Source: Flagellimonas yonaguniensis (lineage in GTDB: Bacteria > Bacteroidota > Bacteroidia > Flavobacteriales > Flavobacteriaceae). From it: a stretch of 64,000 nucleotides of DNA. The position numbers and the translations under genes are program-made. Positions 2,344 to 22,500 of the stretch are shown piece by piece. The stretch's first letter is position 1. Every line of letters begins with the position of its first letter. The stretch spans positions 248,001 through 312,000 of the forward strand of contig NZ_JARFVB010000004.1 in the NCBI RefSeq assembly GCF_029193885.1, in the 5' to 3' direction. Below the pieces are notes generated by a model. It was not told the DNA's origin. It saw only the letters and a list, made by a program, of their open reading frames with translations, and searched no databases.

Positions 2344-2373
2344 CCGAACTGTAATTTTAGTGGGATGAATTGT
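2344..2373 (-). promoter_or_regulatory. Paired LytTR-binding boxes ahead of the 2TM array
   Basis: On the minus strand this reads ACAATTCAT, 12 bp, ACAGTTCGG. The published LytTR consensus is two direct repeats of [TA][AC][CA]GTTN[AG][TG] separated by 12-13 bp; the boxes match at 8/9 and 9/9 with a 12-bp spacer. The proximal box is 73 bp upstream of the 2TM gene start at 2271. A second pair with the same geometry sits at 4568-4597. Confidence 0.75.
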
Positions 2374-2378
2374 ATCTG

Positions 2379-2416
2379 GGGTCAAGGGTCAAGGGTCAAG
2401 GGTCAAGGGTCAAGGG
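2379..2416. repeat. 7-bp tandem repeat, unit GGGTCAA
   Basis: Five perfect head-to-tail copies of GGGTCAA plus three further G residues. It is non-coding, directly beyond the LytTR boxes of the 2TM array. Repeats of this kind can change copy number by slippage, but nothing here shows that it does. Confidence 0.95.
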
Positions 2417-2494
2417 AAGTAAGCAATAAATGAACAACAGGAACTCTTTCAATCCATTTTGGATTTGTTATTTGAACTTAGCCCAACAAAGAGC

Positions 2495-2516
2495 TCTCGA
2501 CTGCACTCGAACTGAC
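2495..2516. repeat. Dispersed REP-like repeat, fragment copy A
   Basis: The sequence TCTCGACTGCACTCGAACTGAC matches one arm of the inverted repeat at 43796-43866 and, on the other strand, the start of the copy at 42764-42805 (GTCAGTTCGAGTG). It is a solitary arm without its partner, in the gap downstream of the kinase gene. Confidence 0.6.
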
Positions 2517-2541
2517 ATCTGACATCTGACATCTGACATCT
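2513..2541. repeat. 7-bp tandem repeat, unit GACATCT, at the kinase stop codon
   Basis: Four copies of GACATCT run into the TAG stop codon (2540-2542, minus strand) of the histidine kinase. On the coding strand the stop is followed at once by repeated AGATGTC units, so copy-number change would not alter the protein. A related but imperfect CAGATAC/CAGATGT series occurs at 16450-16480. Confidence 0.92.
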
Positions 2542-3868
2542 AAAAATCGTCCTTATCCATGAGCTCCCTGATCTTGCGTTCCTCCCAACGCTTGCCCCAC
2601 AAGGGATTATAACCAAAAGCGGCCATTCCATGGGCGGTTAACCCAAATCCCCAGCCTATGGTTGGGAAAAATGCCCATAAAAAGTCCGTGGTGCGGAAGT
2701 TGAGCCACCACAAGAAGGGAATTACGATGCAATAGGCCATCAGGTTGCCATAGAAGTCTTTTATGTTCTTGACCCGCTCTTTGGCATTCGCGTAACGTTT
2801 CTCTTCAATATAGCTCTCCTGAGTCTCCATGACGGTGTACTTTTGGGTAAGCATCGGGATAAAAACACTAAAATCCTTTTCGGTCTTTTCGATGACCATT
2901 TCACGGTCCGTTAAAATATGGTATCGCTGTTTTATATTCTGAAGCCCTACTCCACTACTCTTTTTCACTACTTGTTTTTCCTGAAGATTATTGCTCACGA
3001 CCAACATGCCATTTTGTTCAAACACCTTAATATGCAATGGTCTTGAGGATGTGACCACATTGTGCTTGACCGCATTTTCCAGTAAAAGTTGCAACGACAA
3101 CGGTACAATTTTGGCTTCGGGCTGGGAGCATGCCTCTGGAATATCGAAAATGATACTATCCTCGAAACGCATTTTCAAAAGCCTCACATAAGTCCTGGCA
3201 AACTTCAATTCTTCATCCACAGTAACCAAATCCTTGTTTTTCTGTTCTAGTACATATCGATATACCTTGGACAAGGATGTGGTAAAATTTTGGGCCTGAT
3301 GTGGATCTTCATCAATCAAGCTCGTCAAAACATTGAGACTGTTGAAGAGAAAATGGGGGTCCAATTGGTTTTTCAATGCATCAAACCTGGCAGAAGCTGA
3401 ACCGGCAATGATTTTCTGTTCTTTGACCTGCTTTTCCTTGTAATACTTGTAATAGTAAGCGGCATAGAACATAATGGCGACGGCCATGGCAATGATAAAC
3501 GAGCTTACATAGAACTCGGTGCGCTCCTCTGCCAAAAACTGACTTATGGTTTTTTGATACACCACTACCACGAGTACAAACCTTGATACGATTATCCCCA
3601 AAATAGACGCCGCGATATTTCCTAAAATACCATAGCCCACATATTTTTTGGTAAAAAGCTCCTTATCGTACTTACGCATCATAAATATAAAAGATGCAGC
3701 ATTGAACATGTAAATGATCACTGAAAAAACCATGTTCTCCCAAAACTCCACCCATAGCTCTTGATAGGTCAGGTCCCAGCCCTTGATAAAGAAAATAATG
3801 AGGAAAACTATATAAATAGCTATCCCCACTAAAAATGCCTTAACCAGTTCTCTAAAAAACAGTTTCAT
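2540..3868 (-). CDS. LytS-type sensor histidine kinase with C-terminal 2TM domain
   Basis: A 442-residue protein. Four hydrophobic segments occupy residues about 10-140. A short cytoplasmic linker leads to the His_kinase region, with phospho-acceptor His172 in LDPHFLFNSLNVL, followed by an HATPase_c region (LLLENAVKHN, SSGVGLQNIKQRY). Residues 347-442 form a complete 2TM domain that restarts at an internal ATG (2830), where METQES resembles the starts of the free-standing 2TM proteins. This looks like a kinase gene fused to a neighbouring 2TM gene. It starts 6 bp after the TPR gene and probably phosphorylates the LytTR regulator at 198-953. Confidence 0.93.
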   Translation of the reverse strand: MKLFFRELVKAFLVGIAIYIVFLIIFFIKGWDLTYQELWVEFWENMVFSVIIYMFNAASFIFMMRKYDKELFTKKYVGYGILGNIAASILGIIVSRFVLVVVVYQKTISQFLAEERTEFYVSSFIIAMAVAIMFYAAYYYKYYKEKQVKEQKIIAGSASARFDALKNQLDPHFLFNSLNVLTSLIDEDPHQAQNFTTSLSKVYRYVLEQKNKDLVTVDEELKFARTYVRLLKMRFEDSIIFDIPEACSQPEAKIVPLSLQLLLENAVKHNVVTSSRPLHIKVFEQNGMLVVSNNLQEKQVVKKSSGVGLQNIKQRYHILTDREMVIEKTEKDFSVFIPMLTQKYTVMETQESYIEEKRYANAKERVKNIKDFYGNLMAYCIVIPFLWWLNFRTTDFLWAFFPTIGWGFGLTAHGMAAFGYNPLWGKRWEERKIRELMDKDDF

Positions 3869-3874
3869 CCTCTT

Positions 3875-4498
3875 TTATTTACCGCAGTTTTCCAAAATCC
3901 CCTCTGCTCTTTGTTTCCCCCAAGTAGGGTAAAACGGTGTTTCGGATTTAAAGGTAGCAAAAAGTTCCAAGGCCTTTTCCACATCTTTACAGTATGGTGT
4001 GACATCCTTTCCAAAGTAACGGGCCGACCCCATATCCCATTCGGCTTTAGAGAGTATCACTCGGGGATTGTTGGGTGCCAGCTCCACGGCTCTTTGATAA
4101 AGTTGTGCATTCTTGGGAGATAATGTCATTCCGTAAGTGGCCCCATCAAAAGCTATCCAAGCTGTGTTGATCAGCGCTTCTTGAATCAAAAGTTCTGGAT
4201 TATTGGGAGAGATGGCCTTGGCCACGTCCAAAAACTCCTTGGCCTTTTCCAACTGCTTGCTAAGTTTATCCTCATCTTTCTCCCCAAAGGAAGTTACAGT
4301 GTTTAGTTGAGCAACATAGTAGTATGGCAACCAATTGTCGGGTTCCGCCGTAGCTATTCGTTCGAACATGTTTGATGCCTCTATCGTTTTTTGGTTTTGC
4401 CATAGTTCAAAAGCCTTTTCCATTCCTTTGGAATAGCGGTCCTGAGCGTTGACAAATGTGATTCCCAAGAGTATAATTGCTAAAATCAGTTTTTTCAT
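3875..4498 (-). CDS. Secreted TPR-repeat protein of the LytS/LytTR operon
   Basis: A 207-residue protein with a signal peptide (MKKLILAIILLGITFVNAQ) and helix-pair repeats of TPR type around residues 25-60, 85-115 and 125-165 (for example NNPRVILSKAEWDMGSARYF). It is the first gene of the transcript that includes the histidine kinase, only 6 bp upstream of it, and carries a paired LytTR box 70 bp before its start. A periplasmic partner of the sensor is a reasonable inference; no enzymatic motif is visible. Confidence 0.85.
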   Translation of the reverse strand: MKKLILAIILLGITFVNAQDRYSKGMEKAFELWQNQKTIEASNMFERIATAEPDNWLPYYYVAQLNTVTSFGEKDEDKLSKQLEKAKEFLDVAKAISPNNPELLIQEALINTAWIAFDGATYGMTLSPKNAQLYQRAVELAPNNPRVILSKAEWDMGSARYFGKDVTPYCKDVEKALELFATFKSETPFYPTWGKQRAEGILENCGK

Positions 4499-5096
4499 GA
4501 CTGTCGTTTTATGATTATTGATGGTGCAAAGATGATCTCAAGGGTATGCATTTTAAAAGAAGTCTTACCGAACTGTAAATATTTGGGACTGGACTGTGAT
4601 TCATATCCAGAACACCCCAAAAACGAAAAGAACAACTAAATTGAGTTTTCAGGATGGATTTGTTAAGCTTAACACCAACAAAGTGCTGAGTATATCATTA
4701 TCGAGATCTTACTATTACGACAATCGAAGGACAAGATTTCATCCTGTAGGAAAATCATTTCGATTTACACTCCTTTTTTAAATTAAAAGAATTTTCAAGT
4801 TACTCATTTACAGATTTTTATTATATTTATATAGCTGGTATTTTAAAAAACACCCCCCATACATTCCAGCTATTTTTCTATTTAAGTTAGACCTTTACTT
4901 GCAACTAGAATCTGTGTTTTTCAGGATCGGATATAGCAAGTTGTATTCCCAAACTGCCTTATAATTATTTTAAGTCAACAATTGTAATCATCAATCCAGG
5001 TAACTGCTACCTTGTTTTAAGTATACCTGTAGATAAATTCCGGCCATCATTTGGTCGAGGTTTTCACTATGAATAATTAACCATAATACAAAAACA
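4499..5096. other. 598-bp intergenic region
   Basis: This gap between two divergent genes holds the LytTR boxes at 4568-4597. The rest is AT-rich. A 61-codon plus-strand frame at 4596-4781 lacks domain features and a convincing start, so I do not call it. A strict TAnnTTTG promoter for the lipoprotein gene at 5097 was not found. Confidence 0.7.
4568..4597 (-). promoter_or_regulatory. Paired LytTR-binding boxes ahead of the TPR/kinase operon
   Basis: On the minus strand this reads ACAGTCCAG, 12 bp (TCCCAAATATTT), ACAGTTCGG. The boxes match the LytTR consensus at 8/9 and 9/9 with the expected spacer. The proximal box is identical to that at 2344-2352 and lies 70 bp before the start codon at 4498, almost the same distance as at the other site (73 bp). 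This supports regulation by the locally encoded LytTR protein. Confidence 0.75.
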
Positions 5097-9646: not shown

Positions 9647-11809
9647 CTATAGGTTGTCCAATTGATTGCTGTTACCATCGGTGCTGATGGTCCAAAAGAA
9701 CCCTATGAAGAAAAAGCTATCCGCAGGTGGTGTAACCGCTCTTCCATTGTACACTCCATTTACATCGGGCGTATTGGTATATTGATAATTACTGACGTTA
9801 TCAATGCTCAACAAATTGCTTACCGAGAAGTACAAAATCTTTTGTTGATCGATCAAGTAGGCCCAATTAAAACTCAAATTATTGTACGATTTGGTTCGCT
9901 CTTCCATAAAGCCGGGATTGTTCGGGTTGTGGTACGGCCTACCAGAACCATAAGAATACGACAGTCCAACTTGGGAGCGCAACTTGTCCACCCAATATTT
10001 GGTAACCAATGAAACGTTATGCTTTGGCGCAAAGTTCGGAGTTGCCCTTTCAGGAAAATTTTGGTAGTCCCGTTCAGTATCCAGAAAAGAATAGGAGAAC
10101 CAATAATCCAAATTCTCCACGCTCTTGCTATCCCTCCAAAATACATCAATGCCTTTGGCATAACCCTCTCCAGTATTTGCATAAACTGAATTGAACTGTG
10201 GTGTCTCGGTATCAAAGTTGATCAAACGGTCATAGTCCTTATAATAAAGTTCAGTTCTGAAGGTTTTTCCGTTGTTGATGTATTGATAGTTAAGAATGTA
10301 GTGAGACGCCTTCTCCATCTCCAGGTTCTGATCAAACTTTACCACATCGGATATCGGTCTCTGGTAAAAATCGCCATAGGCCAAAGAAAACTGTCCGTCC
10401 TCCCCTGGCTTATAGGCCAAAGAGACCCGAGGCGATACCTCAAAATCATCAAGCAAACTGCTATGTGTGGCCCTGACCCCTAACTTCATGGCGAATTTAT
10501 TGGTCAAAAAGATATCGGATTCCGCAAAAGCTGCCCAAAGACCATCGGCATAACCATTGTTGAATGCATCCATATCCGCATCGGTATAGGTTTCATCAAA
10601 ATGGGTATTGAAATATTCCGCTCCAAAACTCAAATCGTATCGGTTGCTGAAATTTTTACGGGCCTTTACCTTAAGGTGCGTTGATGTCTCCTTATTATCG
10701 ACCTTGTCCTCTTCCATTCCAATATCATTGGTGTCCCAAGCAATGGATGCCCCAGAGGTCAGACTCCAATCGTTGGCAAAAAAGTATTTATAGGATGAAT
10801 TAAAGTACAGGTTGTTGTTCTTGAGTCGGAAACGCACGTAATCATCAAAATTGATGTCCTCCTGTTCAATATCCAGATTGGTGTGATTGAATCCCGTGTA
10901 CAATTTGAACATGCTCTTTTCCCCTCTGCTCCTAAAAACCGCTTCTCCGGAGATGGATTCATACGGGCTGTTCCAACGTACCCCTTGGGTAGATGGAATC
11001 AGTGCTTCATACGGGGCAAGATTCATATAAGAGGTATTGATGCTCAGCGATTGATCGCCCCAAATTTCTGTATGGCCAATCCCTCCACCGACACTCATTA
11101 TGGAAATATTGGTTTCCTCTTGTAAAGGTACGTCCGTAGTGTTCAGCAAAAGCACACTGGACAGGGCCTGGCCATATTCCGCTGAATAGCCTCCCGTGCT
11201 AAAAGAAATGCCCTTGAAAAGAAAGGGCGAAAACCTACCGCGAGTAGGTGTATTGTTTGGCGTGGCATTGAAGGGTTGAAAAACGCGTAGCCCATCTATA
11301 AAAACCTGGGTCTCCCCTGCTGTACCTCCTCTAACGAACAAACGGCCATCTTCATTAACAGTGGTAGTGCCTGGCAAGGTCTGCAATGCAGCCACAAAAT
11401 CGCCAGCAGCCCCAGCAGTGGTCACAATATCGAGCGGTTTCAGTACCGACACCTTGGAATTATCACCAGCCTCGAAAGTTCCTGCCGTCAAGGTAACACC
11501 GGACAAAGAATTGACGGACTCCATCAATTTAATGTGCAAATCCTTGAAATAGGAAATGTCTCCTGCCTCGTAGTGCGATTCGTAGGACAGCATGGAGACG
11601 ATAAGCGTTTGCAGCCCTTCCTCGATGGTCTCGAAACTAAAATTTCCATTGGCATCGGAAGAAGCTCCGTCGTAAGTACCTTCCAAATAAATGTTGGCAC
11701 CTTCAATTGGGTTGTTTTTGGTATCGGTAACTTTCCCTGATATAGTCTGTTGGGAAAAAACAGCTCCCGTGCATATTAATAAGGTAATTAGGCTGATGAA
11801 GATTTTCAT
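9647..11809 (-). CDS. TonB-dependent outer-membrane receptor
   Basis: About 720 residues. The signal peptide (MKIFISLITLLICTGAVFSQ) is followed by a carboxypeptidase-regulatory-like domain (residues 22-100, ISGKVTDTKNNPIEGANIYL), a plug domain (about 110-230, with GDFVAALQTLPGT and RGGTAGETQVFIDGLRV), and a long beta-barrel. The frame is open to 11860 but the ATG at 11809 starts the signal peptide. No SusD partner is present, so it is not a typical polysaccharide-utilisation pair; metals, siderophores or peptides are possible substrates. It is divergent from a secreted DUF2141 protein. Confidence 0.92.
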   Translation of the reverse strand: MKIFISLITLLICTGAVFSQQTISGKVTDTKNNPIEGANIYLEGTYDGASSDANGNFSFETIEEGLQTLIVSMLSYESHYEAGDISYFKDLHIKLMESVNSLSGVTLTAGTFEAGDNSKVSVLKPLDIVTTAGAAGDFVAALQTLPGTTTVNEDGRLFVRGGTAGETQVFIDGLRVFQPFNATPNNTPTRGRFSPFLFKGISFSTGGYSAEYGQALSSVLLLNTTDVPLQEETNISIMSVGGGIGHTEIWGDQSLSINTSYMNLAPYEALIPSTQGVRWNSPYESISGEAVFRSRGEKSMFKLYTGFNHTNLDIEQEDINFDDYVRFRLKNNNLYFNSSYKYFFANDWSLTSGASIAWDTNDIGMEEDKVDNKETSTHLKVKARKNFSNRYDLSFGAEYFNTHFDETYTDADMDAFNNGYADGLWAAFAESDIFLTNKFAMKLGVRATHSSLLDDFEVSPRVSLAYKPGEDGQFSLAYGDFYQRPISDVVKFDQNLEMEKASHYILNYQYINNGKTFRTELYYKDYDRLINFDTETPQFNSVYANTGEGYAKGIDVFWRDSKSVENLDYWFSYSFLDTERDYQNFPERATPNFAPKHNVSLVTKYWVDKLRSQVGLSYSYGSGRPYHNPNNPGFMEERTKSYNNLSFNWAYLIDQQKILYFSVSNLLSIDNVSNYQYTNTPDVNGVYNGRAVTPPADSFFFIGFFWTISTDGNSNQLDNL

Positions 11810-12021
11810 GACTGTTCGTTTTGATTGATGCCACAAATTTCTCCCTACGTACTTTGCCAAACCAAAACGAAATACCCAATTGTTGTTTTTTACAACTGAA
11901 TTGAATTGCTGTTTTCACTTAACAGTTCACTCCAAAAAATCAACATTTCAGTAGGTTGAAATTTTTCAAGATGGACTTCTTCCTGAATTTTGGAGCATAC
12001 AAAACATCAAAAACAAATAGT

Positions 12022-19553: not shown

Positions 19554-19883
19554 ATGAACATAGAAAACACAAAAGCACAGATGCGCAAGGGGGTTCTAGA
19601 GTATTGCATTCTTTCCATCCTAAAGGATGATGACAAGTATGCCTCAGAAATTCTGGGAGCCTTAAAGGACGCTAAGATGTTAGTAGTGGAAGGTACCATA
19701 TACCCTTTGCTCACAAGGCTGAAAAATGCTGGATTGCTCAACTACCGTTGGGAAGAATCCACATCTGGGCCACCTCGCAAATATTACGCACTAACAGAAA
19801 CAGGGCAGTTGTTCCTAAACGAACTCAACGGCACCTGGGATGAACTAAGGAATGCAGTCAATCTGGTAACCAACACAAAATAG
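19554..19883 (+). CDS. PadR-family transcriptional regulator
   Basis: A 109-residue PadR protein: QMRKGVLEYCILSILKDDDKYASEIL, then the winged helix (EGTIYPLLTRLKNAGLL) and SGPPRKYYALTETGQLFL. It lies 9 bp before the PspC gene, an arrangement common in Bacteroidota where PadR controls a PspC/head-GIN envelope module. It likely represses its own operon; the ligand or stress signal is unknown. Confidence 0.92.
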   Translation: MNIENTKAQMRKGVLEYCILSILKDDDKYASEILGALKDAKMLVVEGTIYPLLTRLKNAGLLNYRWEESTSGPPRKYYALTETGQLFLNELNGTWDELRNAVNLVTNTK

Positions 19884-19892
19884 AATCAAAAA

Positions 19893-21626
19893 ATGAACAA
19901 GACAGTAAATATAAATTTAGCAAATACGCTCTTCCACATAGACGACGACGCGTATAACAAGCTGAGACGGTACCTGGAGTCCATAAGACGGTCTTTCGCA
20001 GGTACTAAGGGAAGCGATGAGATCATTGCCGATATAGAGGCACGGATTGCCGAACTCTTCTTGGAAAAAATGGAGAACGAGCGACAGGTGATCACCCATA
20101 AAGAAGTAGATCAAGTAATCGAAGTAATGGGACAGCCCGAGGATTACATGGTCGACGAGGATATTTTTGAGGACGAACCAAAAAAATCCTATGCACAACC
20201 AACCGGCAGGGCCAAAAAACTGTACCGGGACATAGACCACAAATATATCGGTGGGGTATGTGCTGGGCTTGAGCACTATTTGGGCATTGATGCCCTATGG
20301 ATCAGGCTCATATTTATCCTTTTGGCCGTATTTACCAGTGGATTTGGTTTGATTGCCTATATCCTATTATGGATCTTGGTGCCTGAAGCCGCCACAACCT
20401 CCCAAAAATTGGACATGCGGGGGGAGCCCGTCAACATCAGCAATATAGAACGCAAAGTTAAAGAGGGGTTTGATGATGTTGCAGAAAAAGTGAAAAACGT
20501 TGACTACGACAAAGTAGGCGACAGGGTCAAAAGCAGCTCCAAGACCTTTTTTGATACTATCGGGGACATTATCCTGTTCCTATTTAAGGTATTCGGCAAA
20601 TTCATAGGGATTCTATTGATCATTATCGGTGCTTCCACTTTGGTAGGTCTATTCTTTGGACTTTTCACCGTGGGCATGTTTGATGCAGTTCATGTGCCTG
20701 GAATCGATTTTTATGAGATCGTCAATACCTCCGGAGCACCGGTATGGGTAGTTTCCATCTTGTTGTTCTTCGCTGTGGGGATTCCATTCTTTTTCTTGCT
20801 GTATTTAGGCTTGAAGATATTGGTGAACAACCTAAAATCCATCGGTAACATTGCCAAGTTCGCTCTCCTAGGGCTTTGGTTGATATCCGTAGGAACACTA
20901 ATTGTACTAGGCATACGTCAAGCTGCGGAATTCTCGTATACGGGAAGCGTCAACGACAGAGCAGAACTGACATTGGAAATTCCATCTGATACTTTAGTTA
21001 TCACAATGAAGGATGGCGACATGGATTACAGTCGTGATGACATACATTTTGGCAGAATGACCTTTGGATATGATGAAAATGACAACCGTATTCTCATGTC
21101 GGATGAAGTCGATATTAAAGTAAGAAAGTCGAATACGGATTCCATCAGCATCAACATTAGAAAAGATGCGGATGGTAGCTCTACACCAGCAGCCCGCGAC
21201 CGCGCCAGAAACATTGAATATGCCTACACGGTTGATGGCAATGAAATTGTACTGGACAAATATTTGACCACGGAAACATTGAACAAAGCCAGAAACCAAG
21301 AGGTTACCGTGACCATTTACGTTCCGGAATCCATGACGGTATATTTTGACGGTTCCACGAGCAGATACATTGGCCGGGGAATCGACAATGACCAAGGGTT
21401 TTACAGAAGTGGCATGGCAGGCCAACACTGGTTGATGGATGTCGACGGAGAGCTGCAGTGTTTGGATTGCCCTGATTCGGAAGAAGATGACGAAGAAGGA
21501 AATGGTAAAATCATCATCAATGAGGATGGTATCGATATCGACATTAAGGACAATGCTGATTCCTTTGAAATGAAAATCAATGAGGATGGCATAAAAGTCA
21601 AAGCCAAGGAACAAAGTAACAATTGA
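19893..21626 (+). CDS. PspC-domain membrane protein with sheet-rich C-terminal domain
   Basis: A 577-residue protein. Residues 1-95 are a soluble helical region (SIRRSFAGTKGSDEIIADIEARIAEL). A PspC domain follows at about 110-175 (KKLYRDIDHKYIGGVCAGLEHYLG) and further transmembrane segments occur near 225-340. From about 355 the protein is soluble and strand-rich with an acidic tail (SEEDDEEGNGKIIINEDGIDIDI). PspC proteins sense or counter membrane stress in the phage-shock response. It is co-transcribed with padR and probably with the head-GIN gene. Confidence 0.9.
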   Translation: MNKTVNINLANTLFHIDDDAYNKLRRYLESIRRSFAGTKGSDEIIADIEARIAELFLEKMENERQVITHKEVDQVIEVMGQPEDYMVDEDIFEDEPKKSYAQPTGRAKKLYRDIDHKYIGGVCAGLEHYLGIDALWIRLIFILLAVFTSGFGLIAYILLWILVPEAATTSQKLDMRGEPVNISNIERKVKEGFDDVAEKVKNVDYDKVGDRVKSSSKTFFDTIGDIILFLFKVFGKFIGILLIIIGASTLVGLFFGLFTVGMFDAVHVPGIDFYEIVNTSGAPVWVVSILLFFAVGIPFFFLLYLGLKILVNNLKSIGNIAKFALLGLWLISVGTLIVLGIRQAAEFSYTGSVNDRAELTLEIPSDTLVITMKDGDMDYSRDDIHFGRMTFGYDENDNRILMSDEVDIKVRKSNTDSISINIRKDADGSSTPAARDRARNIEYAYTVDGNEIVLDKYLTTETLNKARNQEVTVTIYVPESMTVYFDGSTSRYIGRGIDNDQGFYRSGMAGQHWLMDVDGELQCLDCPDSEEDDEEGNGKIIINEDGIDIDIKDNADSFEMKINEDGIKVKAKEQSNN

Positions 21627-21777
21627 GTCCCCTAAATCATCAATTGGGTAACTCTTTATTTATAAAACACACGATAAAACGGACATTTACACTGAAATCA
21701 TATCAGTAGAAAACAAACTATTTTTCAAAATCAATCAATAAATGCCCAGCAAAGCTGAGCATCAAAAAACAACAATC

Positions 21778-22500
21778 ATGACAACACTAGCAAGATTAGC
21801 AATCGCCGCACTCCTATCCCTCTTCGCATCCTCATGCATGATGGATATGAACTTCGGCCATGGAAAAACAGGAAATGGGGAAATCGTAGAAGAAAACCGC
21901 GATGTAAAAGAGGATTTTGACGTCGTTTCCGCCTCCGAAGGAATCGATGTATTCGTAACCCAAGGCTCTGATTTCAACATTACCGTAGAGGCCGACGAGA
22001 ACATCATCGACCTTATCGGAACGGATGTTAAAGATGGTAGGCTCAAAATCCACGCCATCGAGAACATCGGGAGAGCTACCAAAAACGTTTATGTGACCTT
22101 ACCAGAGATCACAGCTTTGGAAAGTTCCAGTGGTGCCGACCTCATTGCGCAAAACGTGGTTAAGGCCAACAACATTGAGCTGGACGCCAGTAGTGGTGCC
22201 GACCTTCATGTAGAGGTTGTGGCAGGCGAAGTTTCTGCCGATGCCAGTAGTGGTGCCGACATCAAGGTATCAGGACAGGCAGATGCGCTTTTTGCCGATG
22301 CCAGTAGCGGGGCGGACATTAAAGCTCAAGATTTGGTCGTAAAAAGATGTAACGCAGATGCCAGCAGCGGTGCCGATATCTCCGTGAATGTTTCAGAATC
22401 TTTGGTCGCAGATGCCAGTAGCGGAGCGGATATTAAGTACACTGGTGATGCCAGCGTAGAAACCAAAAAATCCGTTTCGGGGAGCGTGCGCAAATATTAA
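21778..22500 (+). CDS. Head-GIN (DUF2807) lipoprotein with ASSGAD repeats
   Basis: About 240 residues. It has a lipobox (SLFASSCM) and a DUF2807 right-handed beta-helix. Residues about 115-220 carry six SSGAD motifs, five of them in the fuller ASSGAD form, at about 19-residue spacing, each one coil of the helix. The ATG at 21778 was chosen over 21742 because it starts the lipoprotein signal. Head-GIN proteins are surface or periplasmic proteins of unknown function that regularly accompany PspC and PadR. A hairpin terminator follows at 22522-22551. Confidence 0.9.
   Translation: MTTLARLAIAALLSLFASSCMMDMNFGHGKTGNGEIVEENRDVKEDFDVVSASEGIDVFVTQGSDFNITVEADENIIDLIGTDVKDGRLKIHAIENIGRATKNVYVTLPEITALESSSGADLIAQNVVKANNIELDASSGADLHVEVVAGEVSADASSGADIKVSGQADALFADASSGADIKAQDLVVKRCNADASSGADISVNVSESLVADASSGADIKYTGDASVETKKSVSGSVRKY
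22125..22431 (+). repeat. Coding repeat GCCAGTAGTGGTGCCGAC in the head-GIN gene
   Basis: Five copies start at 22186, 22243, 22300, 22360 and 22414, with a partial copy at 22125. Spacing is 57, 57, 60 and 54 bp. Copies 1 and 2 are identical, which implies recent duplication or gene conversion; the later copies differ at synonymous positions. Confidence 0.85.

Follow-up and report, generated by a model that had tools for sequence, protein, structure and literature searches.

Paired LytTR-type direct repeats at a LytS/LytTR locus of Flagellimonas yonaguniensis are probable operators of a system found across the Flavobacteriaceae

LytTR regulators generally recognize two repeats of 9–11 nt that lie 11–13 nt apart, and YpdB of Escherichia coli binds a direct repeat of GGCATTTCAT (PMC4847170). 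AgrA of Staphylococcus aureus binds as a dimer immediately upstream of the promoter, to two direct repeats centred near -60 (PMC4227749). The HdrRM and BrsRM systems of Streptococcus mutans are autoregulated through a pair of 9-bp direct repeats that are mostly separated by 12 bp and lie 4–11 bp upstream of the -35 element; membrane proteins are encoded beside the regulator, and the combination of regulator and membrane inhibitor is described as standing outside the two-component paradigm (PMC6193735). Here, we describe two repeat pairs of this type at a LytS/LytTR locus of Flagellimonas yonaguniensis (assembly GCF_029193885.1, 4.29 Mb in 44 contigs), in a window of 64,000 nt that spans positions 248,001 to 312,000 of the forward strand of contig NZ_JARFVB010000004.1. 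Very probably, the pairs are operators of the LytTR regulator encoded in the same locus, which would activate its own two units and a small envelope regulon throughout the Flavobacteriaceae.

The locus is a minus-strand cluster that runs from a TPR protein through a LytS-type histidine kinase with a C-terminal 2TM domain and four free 2TM proteins to a regulator with a receiver and a LytTR DNA-binding domain. The first gene of the unit (3875–4498) encodes a TPR-repeat protein (Pfam TPR_14) whose N-terminus resembles a signal peptide by eye, and the kinase (2540–3868; PF06580 and PF13239) carries its 2TM domain at residues 361–438. The four free 2TM genes, all PF13239, lie at 1993–2271, 1646–1990 (start possibly internal), 1338–1655 and 1000–1335, followed by the response regulator at 198–953 (PF00072 and PF04397), the presumed binder of the pairs. 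By its domains we class the system as a LytS/LytTR two-component system, with predicted phosphotransfer from kinase to regulator. Both pairs lie on the minus strand and consist of two 9-bp boxes separated by 12 bp, or 21 bp centre to centre. One, ACAGTCCAG-N12-ACAGTTCGG at 4568–4597, stands at the putative operon-head promoter of the TPR and kinase genes, and the other, ACAATTCAT-N12-ACAGTTCGG at 2344–2373, at a putative internal promoter serving the 2TM genes through to the regulator. Re-reading the letters confirmed the boxes, spacer, strand and positions given in a preliminary description of this DNA. It had also placed the pairs 73 and 70 bp from the start codon, which is accurate when counted to the codon, the gap between box 2 and codon being 72 and 69 bases. 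The same description had the proximal box fit perfectly to a published LytTR consensus, which we take to be [TA][AC][CA]GTTN[AG][TG] as quoted there; ACAGTTCGG agrees with it at every letter, and the distal boxes ACAATTCAT and ACAGTCCAG have one mismatch each. Strict 9-bp boxes, however, were dropped as the unit, since conservation goes further, to a CC that follows box 1 and to a run of A in the spacer.

Like the YpdA/YpdB and BtsS/BtsR systems of E. coli, the locus combines a LytS-type kinase with a LytTR regulator. Unlike in those systems, the boxes are ACAATTCATCC and ACAGTTCGG, the kinase ends in a 2TM domain, the cluster holds free 2TM and TPR genes, and the putative operators stand on the system's own genes. 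Direct repeats that would be centred near -60 are shared with AgrA, whereas the promoters here have a Bacteroidetes-type -7 element and the predicted targets are a TonB receptor and envelope genes; the genes read in the cluster are also not those known from the agr locus. The S. mutans LytTR Regulatory Systems (LRS) resemble the locus in repeat geometry, in placement before the -35 element and in having membrane proteins beside the regulator. Identity with an LRS was excluded because the cluster has a kinase and a receiver domain. LytTR direct repeats of 9 bp, their 12-bp spacing, their placement before the -35 element and autoregulation were thus all known already. A search of the open-licence literature found no paper on this operator, the -7 phase, a family-wide regulon, the targets of the kinase or the 2TM arrangement.

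The genus set comprised 71 Flagellimonas/Allomuricauda genomes, with the locus read in 70 relatives and the window. A kinase match was present in all 71, with identities of at least 60% for the best ones. A 30-bp weight matrix, iterated and trained on these genus loci, was applied to two sets of stretches. All 68 that separate the kinase from the first free 2TM gene contained a pair, as did 55 of the 63 that cover the 300 bp in front of the TPR gene. Direct repeats of the form 9-N12-9 stood in register in 123 of the 131 scanned stretches, and above 9 bits the controls gave nothing in 131 reverse strands and nothing in 131 shuffles. The eight misses upstream of the TPR gene fell into two kinds: in L053 and L055 the start codon appears to be over-called, and in L057, L072, L073, L074, L084 and L085 a DUF2141-like gene lies between the TPR gene and the site, which heads the unit further upstream. 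In loci that lack the TPR gene, or have a DUF2141-like gene interposed, a site still stands at the unit head. Scanning the whole of the 71 loci at >5 bits gave 138 sites on the coding strand versus 3 on the opposite one; a third site in L101 (5.4 bits) overlaps a real site and is noise, yet is counted in the 138. Comparison of the upstream regions of relatives had been set beforehand as a refuting test, which the idea survived. All 66 loci that reach both promoters hold both pairs, one at the head and one internal, with a 12-bp spacer, on the coding strand and with a minimum of 20.7 bits, and the other five loci have one pair each, with a contig end cutting the other side.

Two side observations concern the stretch between the kinase and the first 2TM gene. 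It is about 2.3 kb long in L070 and 1.0 kb in L105, compared with the usual few hundred bases, and the distance from the internal site to the 2TM gene is still 82 and 72 bp. The window itself carries tandem heptamers between the kinase stop and the internal promoter, (GGGTCAA)5.4 at 2379–2416 and (CTGACAT)4.3 at 2512–2541. Among the 68 genus stretches the TTGACCC heptamer recurs in L056 alone, with 13 copies, and two or more copies of CTGACAT were found in no other.

A combined pattern was derived from the two sites themselves, so that its window shuffle test, with 4 matches at up to 3 mismatches against a shuffle mean of 0.47 and none of 100 shuffles reaching 4, is a first check only. The preliminary description had proposed a genome-wide search for the box pair, and the two sites turned out to be the sole exact matches in the genome. 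At 3 mismatches the whole genome gave 36 matches versus 17 for the backwards control, and the loose pattern alone is therefore not specific; at 2 mismatches, the 71 genus genomes gave 224 versus 11.

The architecture of the sites extends beyond the boxes. Seventy-seven model sites align without gaps across 71 columns, with the consensus ACAATTCATCC-N10-ACAGTTCGG followed by a T-rich stretch where a -33 element would be expected. The boxes are rich in information, whereas none of the 30 columns preceding them reaches 0.6 bits. Before any filtering, 128 of the 138 sites have a TTTG that begins at exactly position 38 after box 2; by promoter, these are 67 of the 70 head and 61 of the 68 internal sites. 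In the window the TTTG stands at 4527–4530 for the head promoter and 2303–2306 for the internal one, both on the minus strand. Flavobacterial promoters have a TAnnTTTG box, with which this TTTG is shared (PMC9723704). If it represents positions -8 to -5 of such a box, the site would span roughly -75 to -46 with its centre near -60, just upstream of the predicted promoter, and the window start codons would lie some 25 nt past the start site. In comparison with sigma-A type Bacteroidetes promoters, TTTG is fixed, and 121 of the 128 sites have C or G in place of the T at -12. On paper the promoters appear weak for this reason, which would fit dependence on an activator. From these alignments we built a sequence-only model, R1, of 71 columns and 77 rows, which include both window sites (55 bits for the internal and 44.2 bits for the head pair, each as a training row). 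The rows were picked with TTTG at 38, and the TTTG in R1 matches is therefore not independent.

Beyond the genus, the site tracks the kinase. We scanned 199 Flavobacteriaceae genomes of 199 genera, 198 of them other than the host's own, with 25 candidates scored per genome here and in the class sample below. An R1 match at E≤0.01 was found in 157 genomes and a kinase match at E≤1e-20 in 156, and the kinase was full-length or nearly so in 148 of the 198 other genera. The site was present at E≤0.01 in 144 of these 148, versus 12 of the 50 genera without a full kinase, and at E<1e-4 in 127 of 148 versus 1 of 50. Among the 148 site places listed outside the host's own genome, 89 lay close to the kinase, at most 3 kb upstream or 1.5 kb downstream of it, and every one of these was on the kinase strand. 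In a class sample of 198 genomes, about 192 are outside the family, a figure that assumes 167 genomes not itemized to belong to other families, as the order of the list indicates; 6 of these had a site match, at the stricter E≤0.001. A kinase match at E≤1e-60 occurred in two genomes outside the family, one without the 2TM part; the other, from another family of the same order, has a pair in its locus (15.2 bits) with TTTG at 39.

Gene order was read in 40 genera, 8 kb to each side. They were kinase-positive and many were already known for site matches, so that 40 of 40 with a site is a biased rate and 144 of 148 the unbiased one. Kinase, 2TM gene or genes and regulator followed each other in the same order and on the same strand in all 40, in line with the earlier placement of a LytTR regulator at the end of the locus, and the regulator was 67–86% identical. 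A TPR gene lay upstream of the kinase in 33 genera; 20 genera have a homologue of the TonB receptor and 13 have one of DUF2141. Of 68 site matches, 67 were at most 700 bp upstream of a target gene and 49 at most 50 bp; the genes downstream of the 67 were TPR (22), TonB receptor (15), 2TM (14), DUF2141 (12) and histidine kinase (4). The TonB-receptor homologue has a site of its own in 15 of the 40 other genera. The same target genes thus recur in genera that are absent from the R1 training set.

Directly before the regulator gene itself, none of 65 genus stretches held a site above 9 bits. The autoregulatory circuit proposed in the preliminary description is supported: pairs stand at both promoters and co-occur with the kinase across 198 other genera, but none directly precedes the regulator, and autoregulation would therefore have to act via the predicted transcription unit that runs from the 2TM genes to the regulator.

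The preliminary description was also incomplete in counting two pairs. Both are real, but three further promoters in the window carry pairs, two of them at the same TTTG phase; the R1 scan found five places of at least 18 bits, the next best reaching 7.5 bits. Before the gene of a TonB-dependent receptor with a CarboxypepD_reg-like domain by Pfam (9647–11809, minus strand) stands TCAATTCAG-N12-ACAATTGGG at 11875–11904 of the same strand, with 26.5 bits and TTTG at 11834–11837. The pair ACAGTTCAC-N12-ACATTTCAG at 11922–11951 of the plus strand, with 18.0 bits and TTTG at 11989–11992, precedes the gene of a DUF2141 protein (PF09912; 12022–12441, plus strand). The two pairs are set back to back in one intergenic region, 11,875–11,951, and both genes are probable regulon members: on each of the two sides, receptor and DUF2141, 29 of the 30 genus loci examined have a pair whose TTTG is at 38. 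These 30 loci, like the 30 used for DUF2807 below, are the best-matching of the 71 genus genomes. A weaker pair on the plus strand, ACAATTGAG-N12-TCAATTGGG at 21619–21648 (21.7 bits, no TTTG at 38), overlaps the end of a PspC/Toastrack gene and precedes a DUF2807 gene (head GIN domain, PF10988; 21742–22500, plus strand, start possibly 21779), a possible regulon member. A similar-looking 9-12-9 repeat was the top-scoring place in 29 of the 30 DUF2807 loci. The genes for a PadR regulator, PspC with Toastrack and DUF2807 stand in a row at 19554–22500, with the pair overlapping the PspC stop codon, and the pair possibly links the system to PSP-type envelope genes.

In the host genome as a whole, the five matches that cover at least 70 of the 71 model positions all lie within 20 kb (150 of 4664 candidates scored). 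Each of the 71 genus genomes has 3 to 8 R1 matches at E≤0.1. Elsewhere in the host's own genome (L199, contig C23), a partial match of 19.8 bits, TCAATTCGT-N12-ACAATTCGG at 2530–2559, has TTTG at 38 (2597–2600) and precedes a hydrolase-like gene at 2623–3573, possibly a lineage-specific member of the regulon. Searched with Rfam at gathering thresholds, the window contained no family.

In geometry and position the sites match LytTR operators shown to activate, autoregulated ones among them (PMC6193735), and on this basis we interpret them as operators through which the local regulator activates transcription. The kinase would phosphorylate the regulator, two molecules of which would occupy the two boxes on one face of the DNA, centred near -60 and just upstream of the -33 region. 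There they would help RNA polymerase to start at promoters with an off-consensus -7 element. The units activated in this way would be the TPR and kinase genes, the four 2TM genes with the regulator itself, the TonB-dependent receptor, DUF2141 and possibly DUF2807. A search of the PDB with the regulator returned 53 sequences at E≤0.001, which cover the receiver part only and include no template for LytTR bound to DNA.

Several findings weigh against this interpretation. First, the linkage of site and kinase is imperfect. Of the 148 site places listed, 58 are at a greater distance from the kinase or on a separate contig, and 1 belongs to a genome that has no kinase; some of the more distant places are TonB-receptor or DUF2141 sites. 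Among 101 genomes, 72 have their best match close to the kinase. Four of the 148 kinase genera lack a match, one of which (G220), when scanned directly, has weak pairs (13 bits) with TTTG at 38. Twelve kinase-less genera have a match; 11 of these are weak (E from 4.6e-4 to 0.0092), and the exception, G076, has three site matches, the best at 3.3e-7, in a genome with no kinase match at E≤1e-20. Its operators may have outlived the kinase or may serve another one. Second, relatedness inflates the co-occurrence of site and kinase, and kinase-less genera tend, by eye, to have small genomes. Third, the internal 2TM site was found in only 14 of the 40 distant genera, and a close DUF2141 orthologue (at least 55% identity) in only 54 of the 71 genus genomes. 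Fourth, the DUF2807 site has TTTG at 38 in only 3 of 30 loci and is without it in 27, and the pair reaches E≤0.05 with R1 in only 18 of 30, which makes this gene the least certain member of the regulon. Lastly, the host genome encodes 16 LytTR proteins above the Pfam cut-off.

Three other explanations were weighed. The regulator might repress, sitting just upstream of the promoter and hindering the polymerase. The sign of regulation is not deducible from sequence alone, but a centre near -60 and an off-consensus -7 element in 121 of 128 sites fit activation, and S. mutans LytTR regulators activate their own operons from an equivalent position (PMC6193735), so that we consider repression unlikely. 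The pairs might also be LytTR operators whose main binder is one of the 15 other LytTR proteins of the host, with the local regulator binding elsewhere or cross-talking. The number of such proteins and the structural similarity of LytTR sites (PMC4847170) speak for this arrangement; we give it a small probability, as the site tracks the kinase across 198 genera, stands at the starts of cluster genes in 40 loci and, in the host, has its five near-complete matches within 20 kb. A third possibility is that the repeats arose by chance in AT-rich promoter DNA, or that a promoter is conserved with no regulator involved. It would draw on the TTTG common to flavobacterial promoters (PMC9723704) and on the only twofold excess of the 3-mismatch pattern over its control, but can practically be dismissed given the information concentrated in the boxes against <0.6 bits per column in the 30 columns upstream, the strand bias of 138 to 3 and the 6 matches in about 192 genomes outside the family (counted as above).

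Activation by the local regulator also suggests a possible role for the free 2TM proteins. The kinase has conserved H and N boxes: residues H172 and N265 are invariant among 43 aligned sequences, and the stretches around them are nearly so. An AlphaFold2 model of the kinase (mean pLDDT 80.1, pTM 0.44) predicts long N-terminal helices at residues 2–29, 35–72, 74–103 and 118–166, then the kinase core and a C-terminal hairpin; judging from their sequence, the N-terminal helices are predicted to span the membrane. Free 2TM protein 1 and the 2TM domain of the kinase share 64% identity, and the number of 2TM genes varies between genera. A promoter driven by the regulator would supply free 2TM copies, which could act back on the kinase. 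It is a tentative idea, which we think somewhat doubtful, that these copies insert beside the hairpin of the kinase and tune or shut its signalling, forming a feedback loop in the membrane with a gain that depends on how many 2TM genes there are.

The targets, a TonB receptor and a DUF2807 gene beside PspC/Toastrack, hint at envelope state or uptake as the business of the system. In Flavobacterium johnsoniae, a LytTR regulator and a histidine kinase (FJOH_RS09515 and FJOH_RS09520) were mutated in several lines that co-evolved with an antibiotic producer (PMC10197871). The kinase described here is present in about three quarters (148/198) of the other Flavobacteriaceae genera sampled. For this widespread sensor, the sites define an operator, show how its promoters are built and point to a small number of targets, namely a TonB-dependent receptor, DUF2141, TPR and 2TM proteins and possibly DUF2807, so that its regulon becomes directly testable and families of unknown function gain a common regulatory context.

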